From Nitrospinae bacterium RIFCSPLOWO2_12_FULL_45_22 (lineage in GTDB: Bacteria; 2-12-FULL-45-22): DNA of 33,076 nt. The translations under genes were made by a program, and so were the position numbers. Under the pieces are notes generated by a model. The model had not been told where the DNA came from. It did no database searches and saw nothing but the letters and a program-made list of their open reading frames with translations. Shown piece after piece: positions 5,894 to 32,853 of this stretch (the first letter of the stretch is position 1; each line of letters opens with the position of its first letter). The DNA lies in contig MHDQ01000189.1 in assembly GCA_001803565.1 (NCBI GenBank), positions 1-33,076 on the forward strand, in the 5' to 3' direction.

Positions 5894-6769
5894 TCAGAGA
5901 AATATTATATTGATTGCGGTGCCGGTGCCTAACCCTAATTGTTGGTGGGCATTACCTTGATTGATATAGACCTCCAGGTAACCCCAACTATTAAATATCG
6001 CCCCTGCCTCTTTCTCCCTGGCCTCGCCGTAATAACGATTAATCCCTTTTATAACCTTTGGGCCGAGAGAGATTTGACAGCCTCTCCCTTTATTCTTATC
6101 CTGCAATGACTGAAAAAGGGGATGGTCTATATTGGACATGAGATTACCGAAGCTATCTATATATATTATCTTTCCTCTAAGATGGGTATCGCTTAGGATT
6201 TGGGCCTCTGGTAAGAGTAGGGAGTTATAGTCGTAGATGATGGGGCCAAAACATTCTGGCTTTTCCCCCCGCGCAAGCCATGCGGCTACCGGGGCAAAGA
6301 TATCCCGGCCATGAAAGGTACTGCTAACTCGCTTTTTTGCTGGGTCAGGAGACCCGGCGCTATCCCCGGGAGACCCGGCACTATCCTCCAGGGTCAGGAA
6401 AAATTCTCTTGCTGTTATCTCCCTTACGGCCTTTAGTTCTTTGTCCTGATAGACTAAAGATAAGACACCATTGTCCGGGGCAACAAAACAGTATTTTGCG
6501 GTCTCAGCCAAGATGGGCCGTCTGGGACCGCCTACCCCGGGATCAATTACCGCCAGATGGACAGTGCCTACAGGGAAAAAATGATGGGAGGCCTTGAGGG
6601 TCAAGGCTGCTTCTAAGATATGGTATGGTTCGATCTGGTGGGTTATATCTATCAGTATTGCATCGGGGCAAATGCTTAAGATAACCCCTTTCATAGTACC
6701 AACAAAGGGGTCTTTAGTGCCAAAGTCGGTCGTAAGAGTAATTATCTTTTTTACTGACCCGGTATCCAT
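5894..6769 (-). CDS. SAM hydroxide adenosyltransferase (DUF62 family)
   Basis: ITLTTDFGTKDPFVGTMKGVI, HLAVIDPGVGGPRRPI, APDNGVLSLV, STFHGRDIFAPVAAWLA. Confidence 0.9.
   Translation of the reverse strand: MDTGSVKKIITLTTDFGTKDPFVGTMKGVILSICPDAILIDITHQIEPYHILEAALTLKASHHFFPVGTVHLAVIDPGVGGPRRPILAETAKYCFVAPDNGVLSLVYQDKELKAVREITAREFFLTLEDSAGSPGDSAGSPDPAKKRVSSTFHGRDIFAPVAAWLARGEKPECFGPIIYDYNSLLLPEAQILSDTHLRGKIIYIDSFGNLMSNIDHPLFQSLQDKNKGRGCQISLGPKVIKGINRYYGEAREKEAGAIFNSWGYLEVYINQGNAHQQLGLGTGTAINIIFL
6344..6385. repeat. 21-bp tandem duplication in coding sequence (DSAGSPG/DSAGSPD)
   Basis: GTCAGGAGACCCGGCGCTATC (6344-6364) and CCCGGGAGACCCGGCACTATC (6365-6385), 17/21 identical. Confidence 0.8.
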
Positions 6770-6810
6770 TAGCTATATTAGCTATAAACCTTCTCTGCCC
6801 TAATGGCTAA

Positions 6811-6834
6811 GCAGAGCAAGCTCTGCCACTACAG
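6811..6834. repeat. Copy of the GCAGAGCAAGCTCTGCCACTACAG half-element
   Basis: 24 bp identical to 10712-10735; flanked by direct repeat AGCTATATTA at 6771-6780 and 6833-6842. Confidence 0.85.
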
Positions 6835-8583: not shown

Positions 8584-10530
8584 GTGAAAAAAATCTTTAT
8601 TTTTACTTTCCCTCTACCTTTTATAATTGGGGGCATTATTGCTATGTTTTTATTACGGGATGGAGGAGAGCCGCAAAAGGCTATGCCAGCCCCATCCGAG
8701 GCCCTTTTTATTGATGGGGATAAATATTTCCGTCAGGGTAAATACCAGGATGCTATAAGGGCTTATCAGGATGCCCGCCACCACTATCCTAAATCTAGCA
8801 AGGCCCCTAAAGCCCTATTTCAAATAGGGAGGTCTTATGAGCACTTGATGCTCTATCTGGAGGCAGCCGCAGTATATCAAACTTTTTTAGAGTTTTATCC
8901 TCAAGACCCGTTGACCCCGCAGGTTAAACTAGCTAAAGCCACTATGGCCCTTGGGTTAGAAAAACTCCAGGAGGCCCAGGACCAACTTATATATATAATC
9001 AACCAGTATCCTGACCCGCTTATCTCTTCCCAGGCCAAATACCTACTAGCGGATTGTTATTACAAACTAAAAGATTATCAAAATGCCCAAAAATATTATG
9101 AGATGGTCTTTTCCCCTACTCTCGCCTATCTCAGCACACACCAGCAGGGGTTTCTTCAGATGGGAGAAGTATATCTGGCCAATAAAGAATTTTCTAAGGC
9201 CAAACAAGTCTTGCTGAGACTAATAAACATATATCCCCAGGGCAATTATATTGATAAAGCCCTAACTATGTTGGGAGATTCTTTTTATGCCGAGGGAGAC
9301 CTGGAGAAGGCCCTGTTTATTTATGCCTACGCAGCCGAGCGCTACCCCAAGAGAGAATGGGGTCAGCGGAGTCGGCTTCGGCTGGCTAATTTAGGCCTGG
9401 AGAGAGTCCAGGGCCGGGATACAGAGCCATCGTCTCATAGTCCAGACTATTTGAACCCTTTAAAGGCCTATAAAGAGCTAGCCAAAGGAAGTATCTATCC
9501 CGAAGTATCAGCGCTTGCTCTAATGAAGCTAGGAGCCTATTTAGATCAACAAGGCGATTATCAAGGCGCCTATTATATCTTCAAAGAGATCGAGAGTGAA
9601 CATGTTGAGAATAGGCTCTATAAGCAGGCCCAATTGTCTGCTCAAGGGGCTATCAAAAGGTTAATAGACTCTCTCTATTACCAGAATGACTTTCTCTCGA
9701 TGGTGAAATTTTATCGGGAGAATAGAACAGAAATAGAACAGAGTTCTGATGCTCGTCTCCTCTTCTACCTGGCCAGCAGTTGCCAGAACTTGGGATTATA
9801 TGCTTTAGCGGTAAATTTATACGAGCGGGCGGACAAATATTCATCCAAAGCTGACGGATTAAGCCAGGAGATTCTGCTAAATTTAGGGGAAGCATATAAT
9901 CGAGATGAGAGATATGGCTTAGCAGAAAAGGTTATTAGAGACTTTTTACAAAATTTACGGGACAGGAATGCCCCCCCTATCTATAGGCGGGGTTTTCCAA
10001 CCCCGCAAAAAAAATCTTCAGAAGAAACCAACCAATGTCGTGCCTATCCTATTCTAATTAATGCCCTTTATCATCAGGAGAAATTTCCTGAAGCTATCAA
10101 TGCCTATGTCAGTAGCGCAAAACTATGTCCTACAAATAAAGACAATTTTTATATTAATTACCAAATAGGCGCTTCGTACCAGAAGACTGGTAACCTATCG
10201 GAAGCAAAAGCCTGCTTTGAGCAAGCCCTCCAACTATTACCCAAAACCCCCAATGAAGCGGATAAGGCTCTCCCATTATCTGGCAGCTTCCCGGTTCAAT
10301 TAGGAAACTCCCTCTATCGGGCTAAAGATTACAAGGCTGCTGCAGAGGTCTACAACGAGGCATTAAAATTGCCGGGGACAAAAGATATGCTCCCGTGGAT
10401 AATCTACCAATTGGGGCGCTCTTATCAGAAACAAGGCTTAACAAAAGAGGCCCGAAAGACCTATAAGAAGTTGCTTTCTCAGACTAATGACCCGTTTTGG
10501 AAAGATCTGGCTCAGGTCTGGTTAGATTAA
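8584..10530 (+). CDS. Tetratricopeptide-repeat protein with N-terminal signal/TM segment, GTG start
   Basis: Repeated TPR motifs (ALFIDGDKYFRQGKYQDAIRAYQDARHHYP..., LGRSYQKQGLTKEARKTYKKLL); hydrophobic N-terminus. Confidence 0.85.
   Translation: MKKIFIFTFPLPFIIGGIIAMFLLRDGGEPQKAMPAPSEALFIDGDKYFRQGKYQDAIRAYQDARHHYPKSSKAPKALFQIGRSYEHLMLYLEAAAVYQTFLEFYPQDPLTPQVKLAKATMALGLEKLQEAQDQLIYIINQYPDPLISSQAKYLLADCYYKLKDYQNAQKYYEMVFSPTLAYLSTHQQGFLQMGEVYLANKEFSKAKQVLLRLINIYPQGNYIDKALTMLGDSFYAEGDLEKALFIYAYAAERYPKREWGQRSRLRLANLGLERVQGRDTEPSSHSPDYLNPLKAYKELAKGSIYPEVSALALMKLGAYLDQQGDYQGAYYIFKEIESEHVENRLYKQAQLSAQGAIKRLIDSLYYQNDFLSMVKFYRENRTEIEQSSDARLLFYLASSCQNLGLYALAVNLYERADKYSSKADGLSQEILLNLGEAYNRDERYGLAEKVIRDFLQNLRDRNAPPIYRRGFPTPQKKSSEETNQCRAYPILINALYHQEKFPEAINAYVSSAKLCPTNKDNFYINYQIGASYQKTGNLSEAKACFEQALQLLPKTPNEADKALPLSGSFPVQLGNSLYRAKDYKAAAEVYNEALKLPGTKDMLPWIIYQLGRSYQKQGLTKEARKTYKKLLSQTNDPFWKDLAQVWLD
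9958..10006. repeat. Two-hairpin palindromic element inside the TPR coding sequence
   Basis: CGGGACAGGAATGCCCCCCCTATC + TATAG + GCGGGGTT-TTCC-AACCCCGC; related element at 32187-32252. Confidence 0.75.
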
Positions 10531-10540
10531 GGAATAAGGT

Positions 10541-10877
10541 AACTGTTTAGCCACGGATGGACACGGATATACACAAATGTACAAAAATCCGTTTCAATGC
10601 AAAATGCAAAATTAGCAATTAGCATTTTCAAAATCAATTAAGTGTGGCTATTCTTTGTCATAACGCCTAAATAATACAATTTGTAGTGGTCGAGCTTGCT
10701 CGACATTCCTAGCAGAGCAAGCTCTGCCACTACAGGGTTAATTGAATTTTGACAGAAAATAGCCACACCCAAATCAATTCCTCATTGTTAATTTTGCCAT
10801 GAAGGCAGAAATTGATCAGTGTTCATCCGTGTGTATCCGTGGCAAATATTTATAAGACTTTATTTGGCTAAACTGTT
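10541..10877. repeat. Composite nested inverted-repeat island (four layers)
   Basis: Arms 10541-10552/10866-10877, 10550-10574/10821-10843, 10642-10660/10750-10768, 10682-10689/10727-10734 (all eye-aligned). Confidence 0.8.
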
Positions 10878-17023: not shown

Positions 17024-17041
17024 CACAGTTACTCACGTATA

Positions 17042-17254
17042 GAGTACCCGGCTCTGCCACTACAGTCCACAGAATAGCTTGTAGCTGGTAGTGGTTGAGT
17101 CTTCGGGCTGAGGCCCTCGAGGCCTAAGGCTTGCTCAACTCTTTCTAGACCATTTGCCGCTCCTTGATGACTTAGTGCCTTGGTGGCTGAAGGGTTACCA
17201 AGGCAAAATGCAAAATTAGCAATTAGCATTTCAAAATCAATTGTTAATTTTGCA
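17042..17254. repeat. Cluster of at least three repeat families filling the fliH-fliI gap
   Basis: 17042-17064 gagtacccggctctgccactaca; hairpin-rich 17090-17140; hairpin TGCAAAATTAGCAATT (17209-17224)/AATTGTTAATTTTGCA (17239-17254). Confidence 0.75.
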
Positions 17255-18700: not shown

Positions 18701-19129
18701 ATGAAATTGGGAAAATTACTCCAATACCGTAAATGGAAAGAAGAGTGGTCGAAGAAGGAATTAGCTACAAAAAAACAGCTATTGGCTATAGAAGCCGATA
18801 AACTGCGGGCCTTAGAGAAAAGGAAGGCCGAGGGGCAGAATGACTTCCTCCAATGGCAGCAAGGGAATATTTCTCCTGTAATGCTAGAGCTCTATGGCAA
18901 TTTTATCACGGGCATCACATATAAGTGCCGAATGCAGGGCAGTGTGGTGGAGAAAGCGGAAGCACAAGCAGAAGAAAGACGGCTGGAATTATTAAAACGT
19001 TCGCAAGAGAAGAAAATTATAGAAAAGCTTAAGGAAAAGCAAGAAGAAGAGGCTAGAAAGACCCAGGATAAGATGGAGCAGCAATTTTTGGACGAGATCA
19101 GCCTCCAATCTCGGTTATTGGGTGATTAG
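18701..19129 (+). CDS. fliJ: Flagellar FliJ-like export chaperone
   Basis: 142 aa coiled-coil protein directly after fliI; FKLGKLLQYRKWKEEW-like FliJ N-terminus. Confidence 0.85.
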   Translation: MKLGKLLQYRKWKEEWSKKELATKKQLLAIEADKLRALEKRKAEGQNDFLQWQQGNISPVMLELYGNFITGITYKCRMQGSVVEKAEAQAEERRLELLKRSQEKKIIEKLKEKQEEEARKTQDKMEQQFLDEISLQSRLLGD

Positions 19130-19167
19130 GTTATTGGGTCACTCAATGACCAAATAACCCAATGACC
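19113..19167. repeat. Octanucleotide-type array (TTGGGTNA/TTAGGTTA) with inverted arm, overlapping the fliJ stop
   Basis: ggttattgggtgattaggttattgggtcactcaatgaccaaataacccaatgacc. Confidence 0.7.
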
Positions 19168-23104: not shown

Positions 23105-25006
23105 ATGAGAGAATATATCCTTATGCTACTAGACCCTAACGAAGCCGTTCGCAAAGAGGCGATAGAGCAATTGGGCATTCTGGGCACTCCCCAAGCGGTC
23201 GAACCCATAGTCCAGACATTACAGGATCAGAGTAAGGGTGTACAGCAGGCCGCTATGGATGCCTTAATTAACATAGGAGGGAAAGATACTATACTCTACC
23301 TCTTACCCCTCCTTAAGGCTGGAGACGCCGCTTTGAGAAATATGGCGATTGAGGTCTTAACTGAAATTGGCAACCAAGCCCTTGATCTGGTTATCCCTTT
23401 TCTTAAAGACCCGGACGAGGATGTCAGAAAATTTATAGCTGATATTCTAGGTATGCTGGGAGACAGTCGGGCAGTTAAACCATTGCTCGAAGCCATGGCG
23501 GATAATAATCCTAATGTACGCAGCTCTATAATCACCAGCCTCGGTTTATTAAAGGATAAACGGACACTGAAGGCATTGCTAAAGGCATTGGACGATGAAG
23601 AATGGGTAAAATTCTCTGCTGTAGAGGCATTAGCCCAAATGGGTGACCCAAGGGGGGTAAAGCCCTTATTAGGGCTTATGGAGGTCAAGGAAGACCCCAT
23701 CTGCTATGCCGTAGTTGATGCCCTGGGTAAATTAGGCGATAGGCGGGCTTTAAGGCCTTTGCTGGCAAGATTAAAGTCAGCCCCAAGGCCCCTTCAAAAT
23801 GTTATCATCAAAGCCATAGTGAATATTTCAGAGGAGATGGGCTGTTATCCATTCTCAGCGCCAGAGAAGGAGAATCTGGTGCGCTATCTTGTATCAGGCA
23901 TTAGAAGTGATGATCCAGAGATTCAGACTTATTGCCTTAAGGGATTGAGTGAGATAGGTAACCACAGTTGTGTAAAGTCTTTATTAAAATATGCCAATAC
24001 TTTAAACCCAGATGACGAGAGTTGGGAATTAGTAGCCACTGCCCTGAGAAATATTGGTTCTGTTCATCCCCTGATATGCCATTTGAAGACCACGGACGAA
24101 CCCTTAATATCCCTCATTATTAAGGTATTAGGAGACTTAGCCGATAAGCGAGCTACGCTACCCCTGGTTAGGATTTATGAGCGGCTGACGGATTCCAGCC
24201 AGCAGGCCCTGATAATGGCATTGGGAAAGATTCAAGACCCCCGGGCAGTGAAATTATTGCTCCAGGCCCTTAAGGACAAGGATGGACATGTAAGGGCTGA
24301 AGCGGCAAAGTCCCTTGGCGTAATTAAAAAACCCACTGCCATTCCGGCGTTAATCGCCCTTATTAAGCATGACCCTTACCCCGATGTACGCGAGGCAGCC
24401 CTACAATCTTTAACCCGTTTTCCCAAATATTTATCCCTACCCGGGATAAAGGAGCTGCTACAACAGCCTGAGCCCGGGATAAGAGAACTTGCTATTAAAG
24501 GACTTAGTTATTTAAAGACTGGTAAGAACTCTGGGGCCGCAGAATACTTAGAAGACCTTTTGCGGGCTTTAGCAGACCCAGAGAGCCGACTCCGAAAGAT
24601 CGGCATAGGTGCTTTAAAGGATTATCCGGCTGAGAAGGTCTTAAAGCCATTAACTACTGCCTTGGCGGACAAAGATGATCAAGTCAGGATTGCCGCGGTT
24701 ATATCTTTATCAGAACTAAAGGACAAAAGGACTATCAAGCTATTAATCTCTGCCCTAGAAGATAATAACCTATGGGTGCGCTATCAGGCAGCCGAGGGTT
24801 TAGGAAAGTTAAAGGCTAGAGAGGGCGTTAGGCCATTGCTTAACCTCTTACAAAGAGAGGGAGGCCCCCACCAAATAGCGGCTATTAGAGCCCTGAGTTC
24901 TATAGCCGATACCAGAGCTATAAAAGCCCTTGGCCAGATGCGCCAGCATGAAGACCCTGAAATCAGACAAGCAGCAATAAAAGCCCTTAAAAAACTTGAT
25001 AGGTAA
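23105..25006 (+). CDS. HEAT-repeat (PBS-lyase-type) scaffold protein in the chemotaxis cluster
   Basis: About 30-aa units such as LKALDDEEWVKFSAVEALAQMGDPRGVKPLLGLM, throughout 633 aa. Confidence 0.92.
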   Translation: MREYILMLLDPNEAVRKEAIEQLGILGTPQAVEPIVQTLQDQSKGVQQAAMDALINIGGKDTILYLLPLLKAGDAALRNMAIEVLTEIGNQALDLVIPFLKDPDEDVRKFIADILGMLGDSRAVKPLLEAMADNNPNVRSSIITSLGLLKDKRTLKALLKALDDEEWVKFSAVEALAQMGDPRGVKPLLGLMEVKEDPICYAVVDALGKLGDRRALRPLLARLKSAPRPLQNVIIKAIVNISEEMGCYPFSAPEKENLVRYLVSGIRSDDPEIQTYCLKGLSEIGNHSCVKSLLKYANTLNPDDESWELVATALRNIGSVHPLICHLKTTDEPLISLIIKVLGDLADKRATLPLVRIYERLTDSSQQALIMALGKIQDPRAVKLLLQALKDKDGHVRAEAAKSLGVIKKPTAIPALIALIKHDPYPDVREAALQSLTRFPKYLSLPGIKELLQQPEPGIRELAIKGLSYLKTGKNSGAAEYLEDLLRALADPESRLRKIGIGALKDYPAEKVLKPLTTALADKDDQVRIAAVISLSELKDKRTIKLLISALEDNNLWVRYQAAEGLGKLKAREGVRPLLNLLQREGGPHQIAAIRALSSIADTRAIKALGQMRQHEDPEIRQAAIKALKKLDR

Positions 25007-25150
25007 TTGGGTTATTAGGTAACCTGGGTTATTGGGTAACTGGGTCATTAGGTGATTAGGTAATTGGGTCATTAGGTGATTAAGTGATTAGGGTATTCGA
25101 TCTCTTTAGTTACCCAATAACCCAATAACCCAATAACCTAATAACCCAAT
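25001..25150. repeat. Octanucleotide arrays in opposite orientations (TTGGGTTA... / ...TAACCCAA), HEAT gene-cheR junction
   Basis: Left arm about 11 degenerate units; right arm ttacccaataacccaataacccaataacctaataacccaat. Confidence 0.9.
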
Positions 25151-25160
25151 GGAGAAGCAG

Positions 25161-25997: not shown

Positions 25998-26371
25998 ATA
26001 TGTCTAAGCATATATTGATAGTGGATGATTGTCGCACTACAAGAAAACTGCTTATCTATTCATTAAAAGATACACATTATCAGATAACTGTGGCCAGTAA
26101 TGGCATAGAAGCTTTAGAAAAAATGGCATCTTGCCCGGTAGACTTGGTCATTACTGATCTTAACATGCCCAAGATGGATGGTTTAGAACTGGTGCGGGCC
26201 CTCAGAGGGGAAACTCTCTATAATCATATCCCTATCATAATGTTGACTACCGAGGGGAAAGAAGAAGAGAAAAAGAAGGGATTAGCTTCTGGAGCTAATC
26301 GTTACTTAGTAAAGCCCGTATCCAGGGAGGTTTTGCATAACCAAATAAAAGAACTCCTTCGCGGAAAATGA
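25994..26371 (+). CDS. CheY-like single-domain response regulator
   Basis: ILIVDDCRTTRKLLIYSL, VITDLNMPKMDG, LVKPVSREVL. Confidence 0.93.
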   Translation: MNMSKHILIVDDCRTTRKLLIYSLKDTHYQITVASNGIEALEKMASCPVDLVITDLNMPKMDGLELVRALRGETLYNHIPIIMLTTEGKEEEKKKGLASGANRYLVKPVSREVLHNQIKELLRGK

Positions 26372-26374
26372 TTG

Positions 26375-26449
26375 TTACTGGGTCATTAGGTTATTGAGTT
26401 ATTGGGTTACAGGATTCCCCTAATAACCTAATAACCTAATAACCTATTT
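26375..26449. repeat. Octanucleotide arrays in opposite orientations between cheY-like and cheA
   Basis: ctgggtcattaggttattgagttattgggttac...cctaataacctaataacctaataacc. Confidence 0.88.
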
Positions 26450-31764: not shown

Positions 31765-32853
31765 ATGACTAAAATTATTAGGGCACTCATTGTAGATGAC
31801 TCGGCCTTTATGCGCAAGGCCCTTACCAATATGCTCCAGACTGATAGAGAGATAGAGGTAGTGGCTACTGCCAGGAATGGTGATGAGGCGCTGGATAAAA
31901 TATTTAAGCTTAAGCCCGACTTAGTGACCCTGGATGTAGAGATGCCCGGGATGAATGGCCTGGAGGTACTGAAGATAATTATGGAACAGATGCCCCTACC
32001 GGTTCTTATAGTCAGCTCCCTTACCAGTGAAGGTGCCCAGACCACCTTGGAAGCCCTGGATTTAGGGGCGATAGACTTCATACCCAAAAGCCTGGCTGAT
32101 GTATCGCTGAATATCCTTAAGATCAAGGATGATCTTATTACTAAGATAAAGGCCATAGCCCATAAAAGGCCATCCTTTTTGAACAAGGCGGGACAGGAAT
32201 GTCCCGCCTATCGGACCCATAGACTCGATAGACGGGATTTTCTAACGCCGTCCTGGCAGAAGAAGAAAAACTTCATTCACCACAAAGTAGGTGTGGTGGC
32301 TATAGGAACCTCTACTGGTGGACCCAAGGCCCTACAAGAACTCTTATCTCCTCTGCCAGCGGATTTTCCTACCGGTATCGTCATAGTGCAGCATATGCCC
32401 GCGGCCTTTACCGGCCCCTTTGCTCAGAGGTTGGATCAGCTCTGTGCTATCAAGGTAAAGGAAGCAGAACCCGGCGATACTATCCAATCTGGTCTGGCCT
32501 TACTGGCCCCAGGGAACCTTCATATGAAGGTGGTAAGGAAAAAGGCTACCGAGGTAAATCTTGAGCTGACTCCCTATCCTGGTAACTTACCTTATTGCCC
32601 CTCGGTAGATATAATGATGGCCTCGGTGGCGGAGGTATATCCGGGTCGCTGTATAGGAGTGATCCTTACTGGTATGGGCCATGATGGCCGGGATGGGGTA
32701 TTAAAAATCAAGCAAAGCCAGGGTAAGACCCTGGCCCAGGATGAAGATTCTTGTGTAGTTTTTGGTATGCCTAAGGCAGCAATAGAAACCGGGGCAATAG
32801 ATAAAGTGGTATCTTTGTCCGAGATGCCAGGTGAATTAATCAATATGGTGTAA
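31765..32853 (+). CDS. cheB: Chemotaxis response regulator protein-glutamate methylesterase CheB
   Basis: ALIVDDSAFMRKALTNML, LDVEMPGMNGLEVL, AIGTSTGGPKALQELL, VQHMPAAFTGPFAQRLD, LTGMGHDGRDGV. Confidence 0.97.
   Translation: MTKIIRALIVDDSAFMRKALTNMLQTDREIEVVATARNGDEALDKIFKLKPDLVTLDVEMPGMNGLEVLKIIMEQMPLPVLIVSSLTSEGAQTTLEALDLGAIDFIPKSLADVSLNILKIKDDLITKIKAIAHKRPSFLNKAGQECPAYRTHRLDRRDFLTPSWQKKKNFIHHKVGVVAIGTSTGGPKALQELLSPLPADFPTGIVIVQHMPAAFTGPFAQRLDQLCAIKVKEAEPGDTIQSGLALLAPGNLHMKVVRKKATEVNLELTPYPGNLPYCPSVDIMMASVAEVYPGRCIGVILTGMGHDGRDGVLKIKQSQGKTLAQDEDSCVVFGMPKAAIETGAIDKVVSLSEMPGELINMV
32187..32252. repeat. Two-hairpin palindromic element in the cheB interdomain linker
   Basis: Perfect hairpin GGCGGGACA-GGAA-TGTCCCGCC (32187-32208) plus GACGG...CCGTC (32231-32252). 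Confidence 0.8.

Follow-up and report, generated by a model that had tools for sequence, protein, structure and literature searches.

Why should a gene for a TPR-repeat protein and the chemotaxis gene cheB carry the same two-hairpin stretch of DNA, translated in different reading frames? Both genes lie in the 33,076-nt stretch of a Nitrospinae bacterium contig analysed here (the window). The original prediction placed the two segments correctly, and its second, reversed hairpin is present in both copies. Judged from sequence comparisons, each segment is very probably a non-autonomous pair of repetitive extragenic palindromes (REPs), which a REP-associated tyrosine transposase (RAYT) would have mobilised and which was inserted in frame at a tolerant site.

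Anatomy of the tail-to-tail pair

The element consists of two inverted copies of a 25-nt unit, each composed of a GATAG tag, an 8-bp stem and a TTCY loop, arranged tag to tag. In the aligned copies, the first hairpin (H1) reads GCGGGACA-GGAA-TGTCCCGC followed by CTATC, and the second hairpin (H2), preceded by GATAG, reads GCGGGGTT-TTCT-AACCCCGC. Turned round, H1 becomes GATAG-GCGGGACA-TTCC-TGTCCCGC, to be set beside GATAG-GCGGGGTT-TTCT-AACCCCGC of the H2 unit; thus the two hairpins are one 25-nt unit, and the reversed hairpin is the first unit inverted and varied in its stem. Three stem pairs are exchanged between them (A-T/G-C, C-G/T-A and A-T/T-A), with the TTCY loop common to both. The tags touch in the TPR gene (0 nt), whereas 14 nt separate them in cheB. 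This anatomy is that of a tail-to-tail REP heterodimer. A 23-base core of the element matches the window only at 9959 and 32190, with 0 matches expected from 100 dinucleotide shuffles.

Table 1. Positions of the REP pairs, their parts and their host genes in the window
Feature	Position	Strand	Details
TPR-repeat protein gene (host gene)	8584..10530	+	ORF; Pfam TPR matches; insert encodes RDRNAPPIYRRGFPTPQ
Whole tail-to-tail REP pair in TPR gene	9949..10021	+	R1 match 9949-10019, E 1.4e-26; R2 match 9944-10024, E 8.8e-21
Degenerate outer arms of TPR-gene pair	9949-9954 / 10014-10019		CAAAAT / ATCTTC
H1 hairpin, TPR gene	9957..9976	-	ACGGGACA-GGAA-TGCCCCCC, mutation in second stem arm
Abutting tags, TPR gene	9977..9986	.	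CTATC / TATAG; consensus CTATC, GATAG, spacing 0
H2 hairpin, TPR gene	9987..10006	+	GCGGGGTT-TTCC-AACCCCGC
cheB gene	31765..32853	+	insert in linker that joins the receiver domain (8-112) to the methylesterase domain (178-358)
REP pair in cheB	32188..32251	+	R1 match 32180-32264, E 4.4e-20
Parts of cheB pair	H1 32188-32207; CTATC 32208-32212; GATAG 32227-32231; H2 32232-32251		14-nt spacer between tags; H2 = ACGGGATT-TTCT-AACGCCGT
Second REP class	6326..6386	-	loop TCCT, tag GATAG/GGTAG-like; within the SAM hydroxide adenosyltransferase gene (5894-6769), in frame

In agreement with the original prediction, the two genes read the element in different frames: CGG GAC AGG in the TPR gene, and GCG GGA CAG in cheB, giving AGQECPAYR. 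The TPR-gene insert appears to sit between two TPR units, and no close orthologue of this gene, which might show an empty site, was found. Structure comparison showed that the inter-domain linker of CheB is longer here than in 1A2O and that the insert falls within it. As anticipated, the insert peptide is absent from all CheB orthologues compared; the boundary of the insertion is soft, because linker length varies among these orthologues.

Pairing of the stems depends on the tag. Across loci of other phyla, GATAG-N8-TTCY-N8 has at least 7 of 8 stem pairs in 91 of 120 occurrences, a count that leaves out the two commonest H1 forms. Control tags gave 0/23 (GATCG), 0/23 (GAAAG), 0/14 (GACAG) and 0/5 (GTTAG) at this threshold, and CATAG, one base off the tag, preceded well-paired stems in 4 of 12 cases. 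Among the paired GATAG sites the left stem takes 17 forms, and double changes occur at stem positions 1, 6, 7 and 8. The tag itself is GATAG in 215 of the 253 units scanned, a fraction inflated by fetching the loci with a pattern that contains part of the tag, and the host-genome copies show GATAG too. In RNA form the minimum-energy fold is one long nested hairpin (z = -4.4 for the TPR copy and -3.3 for the cheB copy), which makes it an alternative to the two-hairpin form.

Copies in the host genome and in other phyla

The rest of the genome holds further copies, as had been foreseen. A 71-position covariance model (R1) run over the whole genome found nine distinct places at E<=2e-11 (C45, C302 twice, C189 twice, C145, C11, C253 and C16), with weaker ones below, and whole-genome BLAST matched C45 (6e-16) and C302 (5e-14). 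The copies are located in different genes and in intergenic DNA. Besides those in the TPR gene and cheB, in-frame copies precede the ATPase domain of an ArsA ATPase and the GvpL/F domain of a gas-vesicle protein. A related REP pair lies in frame in uvrA (L038:774-849, G000 C214), a gene in which REP inserts have been reported in other bacteria (PMC3733652). In addition, the SAM hydroxide adenosyltransferase gene is lengthened by its REP of the second class, which encodes about 19 residues that solved homologues (2zbu) lack.

The GATAG family is genuine, and its occurrence is scattered and patchy. A scan for exact copies of the H1-plus-tag core found at least 118 stretches in at least 31 genomes labelled as Nitrospirae, Methylomirabilota, Schekmanbacteria, Omnitrophota, Thermodesulfobacteriota or Deltaproteobacteria, Dadabacteria, Planctomycetota and Actinomycetota; these eight phyla are the depositors' own labels for what are mostly metagenome bins, many from groundwater, and some may be wrong. 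The pattern GATAGNCGGGNNNTTCYNNNCCCG was counted in 32 genomes selected because they carry the element: each has 1-62 copies, against 0 copies of the reversed control pattern in all of them. Among 386 domain-wide genomes, 6 are positive. Scored over 98 relatives, R1 gave mostly weak single matches, the exceptions being a Nitrospirae bin (G038) and G040. The G040 match was rejected, being a different, GTAG-like hairpin; this unrelated genome carries about 30 GGTAGG-tagged hairpins of similar anatomy (L057, L072, L074 and L076), for example GTGCGGTT-TCCT-AACCGCAC.

In other genomes, 33 pairs are oriented head to head and 21 tail to tail. Spacing 0 is the commonest single spacing of tail-to-tail pairs, found in 15 of 39 from a set that owes its enrichment to a model based mainly on pairs of this kind and in 4 of 21 from a second set free of that bias; it was not seen among the 33 head-head pairs. 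Pairs within genes occur in CheA, in an LPG-synthase C-terminal domain protein and in PilM, and the CheA of one such bacterium has about 60 residues where solved homologues have 7-16.

RAYT genes bracketed by the hairpins

Searching the element-bearing loci with the RAYT proteins of the host genome revealed RAYT genes directly against the hairpins in Schekmanbacteria (L107), Omnitrophota (L147 and L143) and Deltaproteobacteria (L098 and L195). When 32 genomes were searched with a GATAG-RAYT profile built from four hairpin-adjoining RAYTs, eight loci matched strongly (E<=4e-55), all with a family hairpin within about 200 bp. Five of the eight are fully bracketed, with a GATAG-H2 type hairpin upstream, an H1-CTATC type downstream and the tags outward; they come from Schekmanbacteria (one), Omnitrophota (two), 'Nitrospira' and 'Deltaproteobacteria' (L245, L246, L248, L249 and L251). 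The remaining three have at least one family hairpin within that distance, some with degenerate tags. By comparison, of the other 22 of the 30 RAYT-like loci only L254, a truncated homologue, is so flanked, and the remaining 21 lack the bracket; this control is fair, because all loci come from the same genome set. The HUH motif is kept in the GATAG-flanked proteins. The GATAG group is no supported single clade in the RAYT tree: it appeared in 38% of bootstrap trees, long branches meet, and many of the other RAYTs dropped out.

The host genome has five Y1 transposase matches. All four intact ones are recognised by the NCBIfam model for REP-associated tyrosine transposases, and three of these score above the cut-off. 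In this 85%-complete assembly, none of the five was seen with GATAG REP flanks of the element's family, and the best match to the GATAG-RAYT profile reached only E 2.7e-17. Three host RAYTs were rejected as partners: C141 is bracketed by GGTAG/TCCT REPs instead, the class also present in the SAM hydroxide adenosyltransferase gene of the window, C49 has GTAGGG hairpins at its flanks, and C37 is flanked by another palindrome. Inside the C141 RAYT gene (L083:1420-1995, G000) lies a REP-like insert (AGSDRSPDLSS), of the same class as the REPs that bracket this gene. A cognate RAYT is common for REPs, not universal; with no matching RAYT in the assembly, the host-genome copies look like leftovers.

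Relation to known repeats and possible origin

Similar to REPs in general, the element is a short tagged hairpin (25 nt, within the range of 20-40 nt) repeated at nine places in its genome, and the same hairpins flank a RAYT gene in five complete brackets, all in other genomes. Classical REPs carry a GTAG tag and often exceed 100 copies per genome, compared to GATAG and few copies here. In REPINs the tags lie outside. The TPR and cheB copies are arranged oppositely, tail to tail with tags inside, whereas the head-head pairs of other genomes fit the REPIN arrangement; common to both are two inverted REPs spread as a unit and the link to RAYTs (Bertels and Rainey 2011, PMC3116915). GTAG REPs and REPtrons (Di Nocera 2013, PMC3733652; Nunvar 2010, PMC2817692) share short tagged hairpins, single or in head-head and tail-tail homo- or heterodimers, a hairpin-flanked RAYT gene, and intragenic copies, uvrA included. 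However, in place of the expected GTAG the element reads ATAG, a form not covered by the degeneracy listed for that superfamily (GYAG, GYRG, GTRG, GTMG and GTGG; PMC3733652), and neither 'GATAG' nor 'Nitrospira' occurs in the main text of that paper. The TnpA-REP group 3 REPtrons with perfect-palindrome REPs (Corneloup 2021, PMC8266576) likewise have a short perfect stem, a constrained loop, a tag 5' of the hairpin and an HUH Y1 enzyme; by contrast, the left and right hairpins of the element differ at three stem pairs and recur as a two-hairpin set in several phyla, and we do not assign it to group 2 or 3. Altogether, the comparison supports a GATAG-tagged REP variant, filed in neither the GTAG nor the CGTC superfamily because it lacks the tag that defines each. 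A literature search with stretches of the sequence found no description of the element in open papers, the single match being unrelated and of primer length, which is no proof of absence.

The pair was most likely mobilised by the RAYT subfamily, a single-strand HUH/Y1 transposase, that has GATAG-H2 upstream and H1-CTATC downstream of its gene. For other REPs, in vitro work has shown RAYTs to act as HUH enzymes, which cut single-strand hairpins that bear a tag and then join the ends (PMC8266576). Having recognised the tag and the hairpin folded in the single strand, the enzyme would cut and join, and hairpins would thereby spread without the gene; the conserved features, namely tag, loop and stem, are those that the enzyme would read. 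Some copies would have ended up in intergenic DNA and others in frame at sites that tolerate them, namely the TPR gene, the CheB linker, ArsA and GvpL/F, and those of the host may survive from a time when a GATAG RAYT was present or supplied. We infer that the units owe their movement to the RAYT, that it acts on single-stranded DNA and that the inserts are nearly neutral.

As to DNA, RNA or peptide, the original prediction favoured either nucleic acid over the peptide, and its DNA half stands, given the different frames, different genes and intergenic copies. The other half, a transcribed RNA element such as an RNase-resistant hairpin, an attenuator or an sRNA-binding site duplicated for a regulatory role, is very improbable: the folds are stable and the stems covary, but a DNA hairpin recognised single-stranded would covary equally, the window has no Rfam match, and the copies lie inside coding sequences of unrelated genes and are patchy across phyla, alongside a transposase gene. 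The likeness to Rickettsia palindromic elements (RPEs) holds as an analogy, with palindromes in frame in TPR, CheB, ArsA and GvpL/F genes here and in CheA, PilM and LPG-synthase genes elsewhere. It fails as an identity, since RPE-4 and RPE-6 are CGTC-tagged REPs without an associated transposase (PMC3733652), whereas GATAG hairpins bracket a RAYT in other genomes. The ArsA, CheA, LPG-synthase and PilM copies of different genomes do encode a shared peptide, roughly ENxRDKNVPPIDRRGFLTPxxxFSGE, as a selected in-frame peptide module would. Such a true RPE is nevertheless very improbable; cheB is translated in a different frame, many copies lie outside coding sequence, and the peptide reading is set aside because the recurring frame is the only open forward frame of spacing-0 copies, enough alone to explain the shared peptide.

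Highly improbable, too, is a classical MITE derived from a DDE-transposase insertion sequence with outer arms GAAAAT/ATTTTC as terminal inverted repeats. These arms recur in the host genome and in Nitrospirae and Schekmanbacteria bins, but they are far from universal, and the hairpins bracket a Y1 transposase instead. As general ends of the mobile unit, suggested by alignment A4, the arms were rejected, both being present in only 4 of 39 pairs. In one Nitrospirae bin (nzgw273), tail-to-tail pairs in three genes (L116, L174 and L340) have the common outer flanks GA(T)GAAAAT...ATTTTC and also share the peptide ENERDKNVPPIV...RGFLTPPEGFSDE; therefore the mobile unit there seems longer than two hairpins.

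Within the RAYT-based explanation, a tentative and rather doubtful extension is that the tail-to-tail pair represents the junction formed when the right and left ends of a RAYT transposon are joined. The gene-bearing unit is ordered GATAG-H2, RAYT, H1-CTATC, compared to H1-CTATC joined to GATAG-H2 in the TPR-type pair, and the exact abutment at spacing 0, as expected from the junction of a single-strand circle of IS200/IS605 type, fits this reading. If so, RAYT units would excise as circles and the junctions themselves would reinsert; published work sees no evidence for movement of RAYT genes themselves (PMC8266576). That a single hairpin pair recurs together with a single RAYT subfamily in bins from several phyla bears on how REPs spread. 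With distinguishable left and right hairpins, the GATAG family offers a defined enzyme/substrate pair for a cutting-and-joining test outside the enterobacterial and Pseudomonas systems, and it ties in-frame palindromic gene inserts, familiar from Rickettsia as REPs without transposase, to a named transposase.

The window also holds other intergenic repeats. Single GTAG-tagged hairpins of a third REP class, AGCAGAGCAAGCTCTGCCACTACAG (reverse, GTAGTGGCAGAGCTTGCTCTGC), occur at 6810-6834, 10711-10735 and 17041-17065. Arrays of an 8-base unit (TTGGGTAA / TTAGGTGA) lie at 19110-19167, 24999-25154 and 26366-26447, and are faced by inverted arrays (CCCAATAA) to form large inverted repeats between chemotaxis/flagellar genes.
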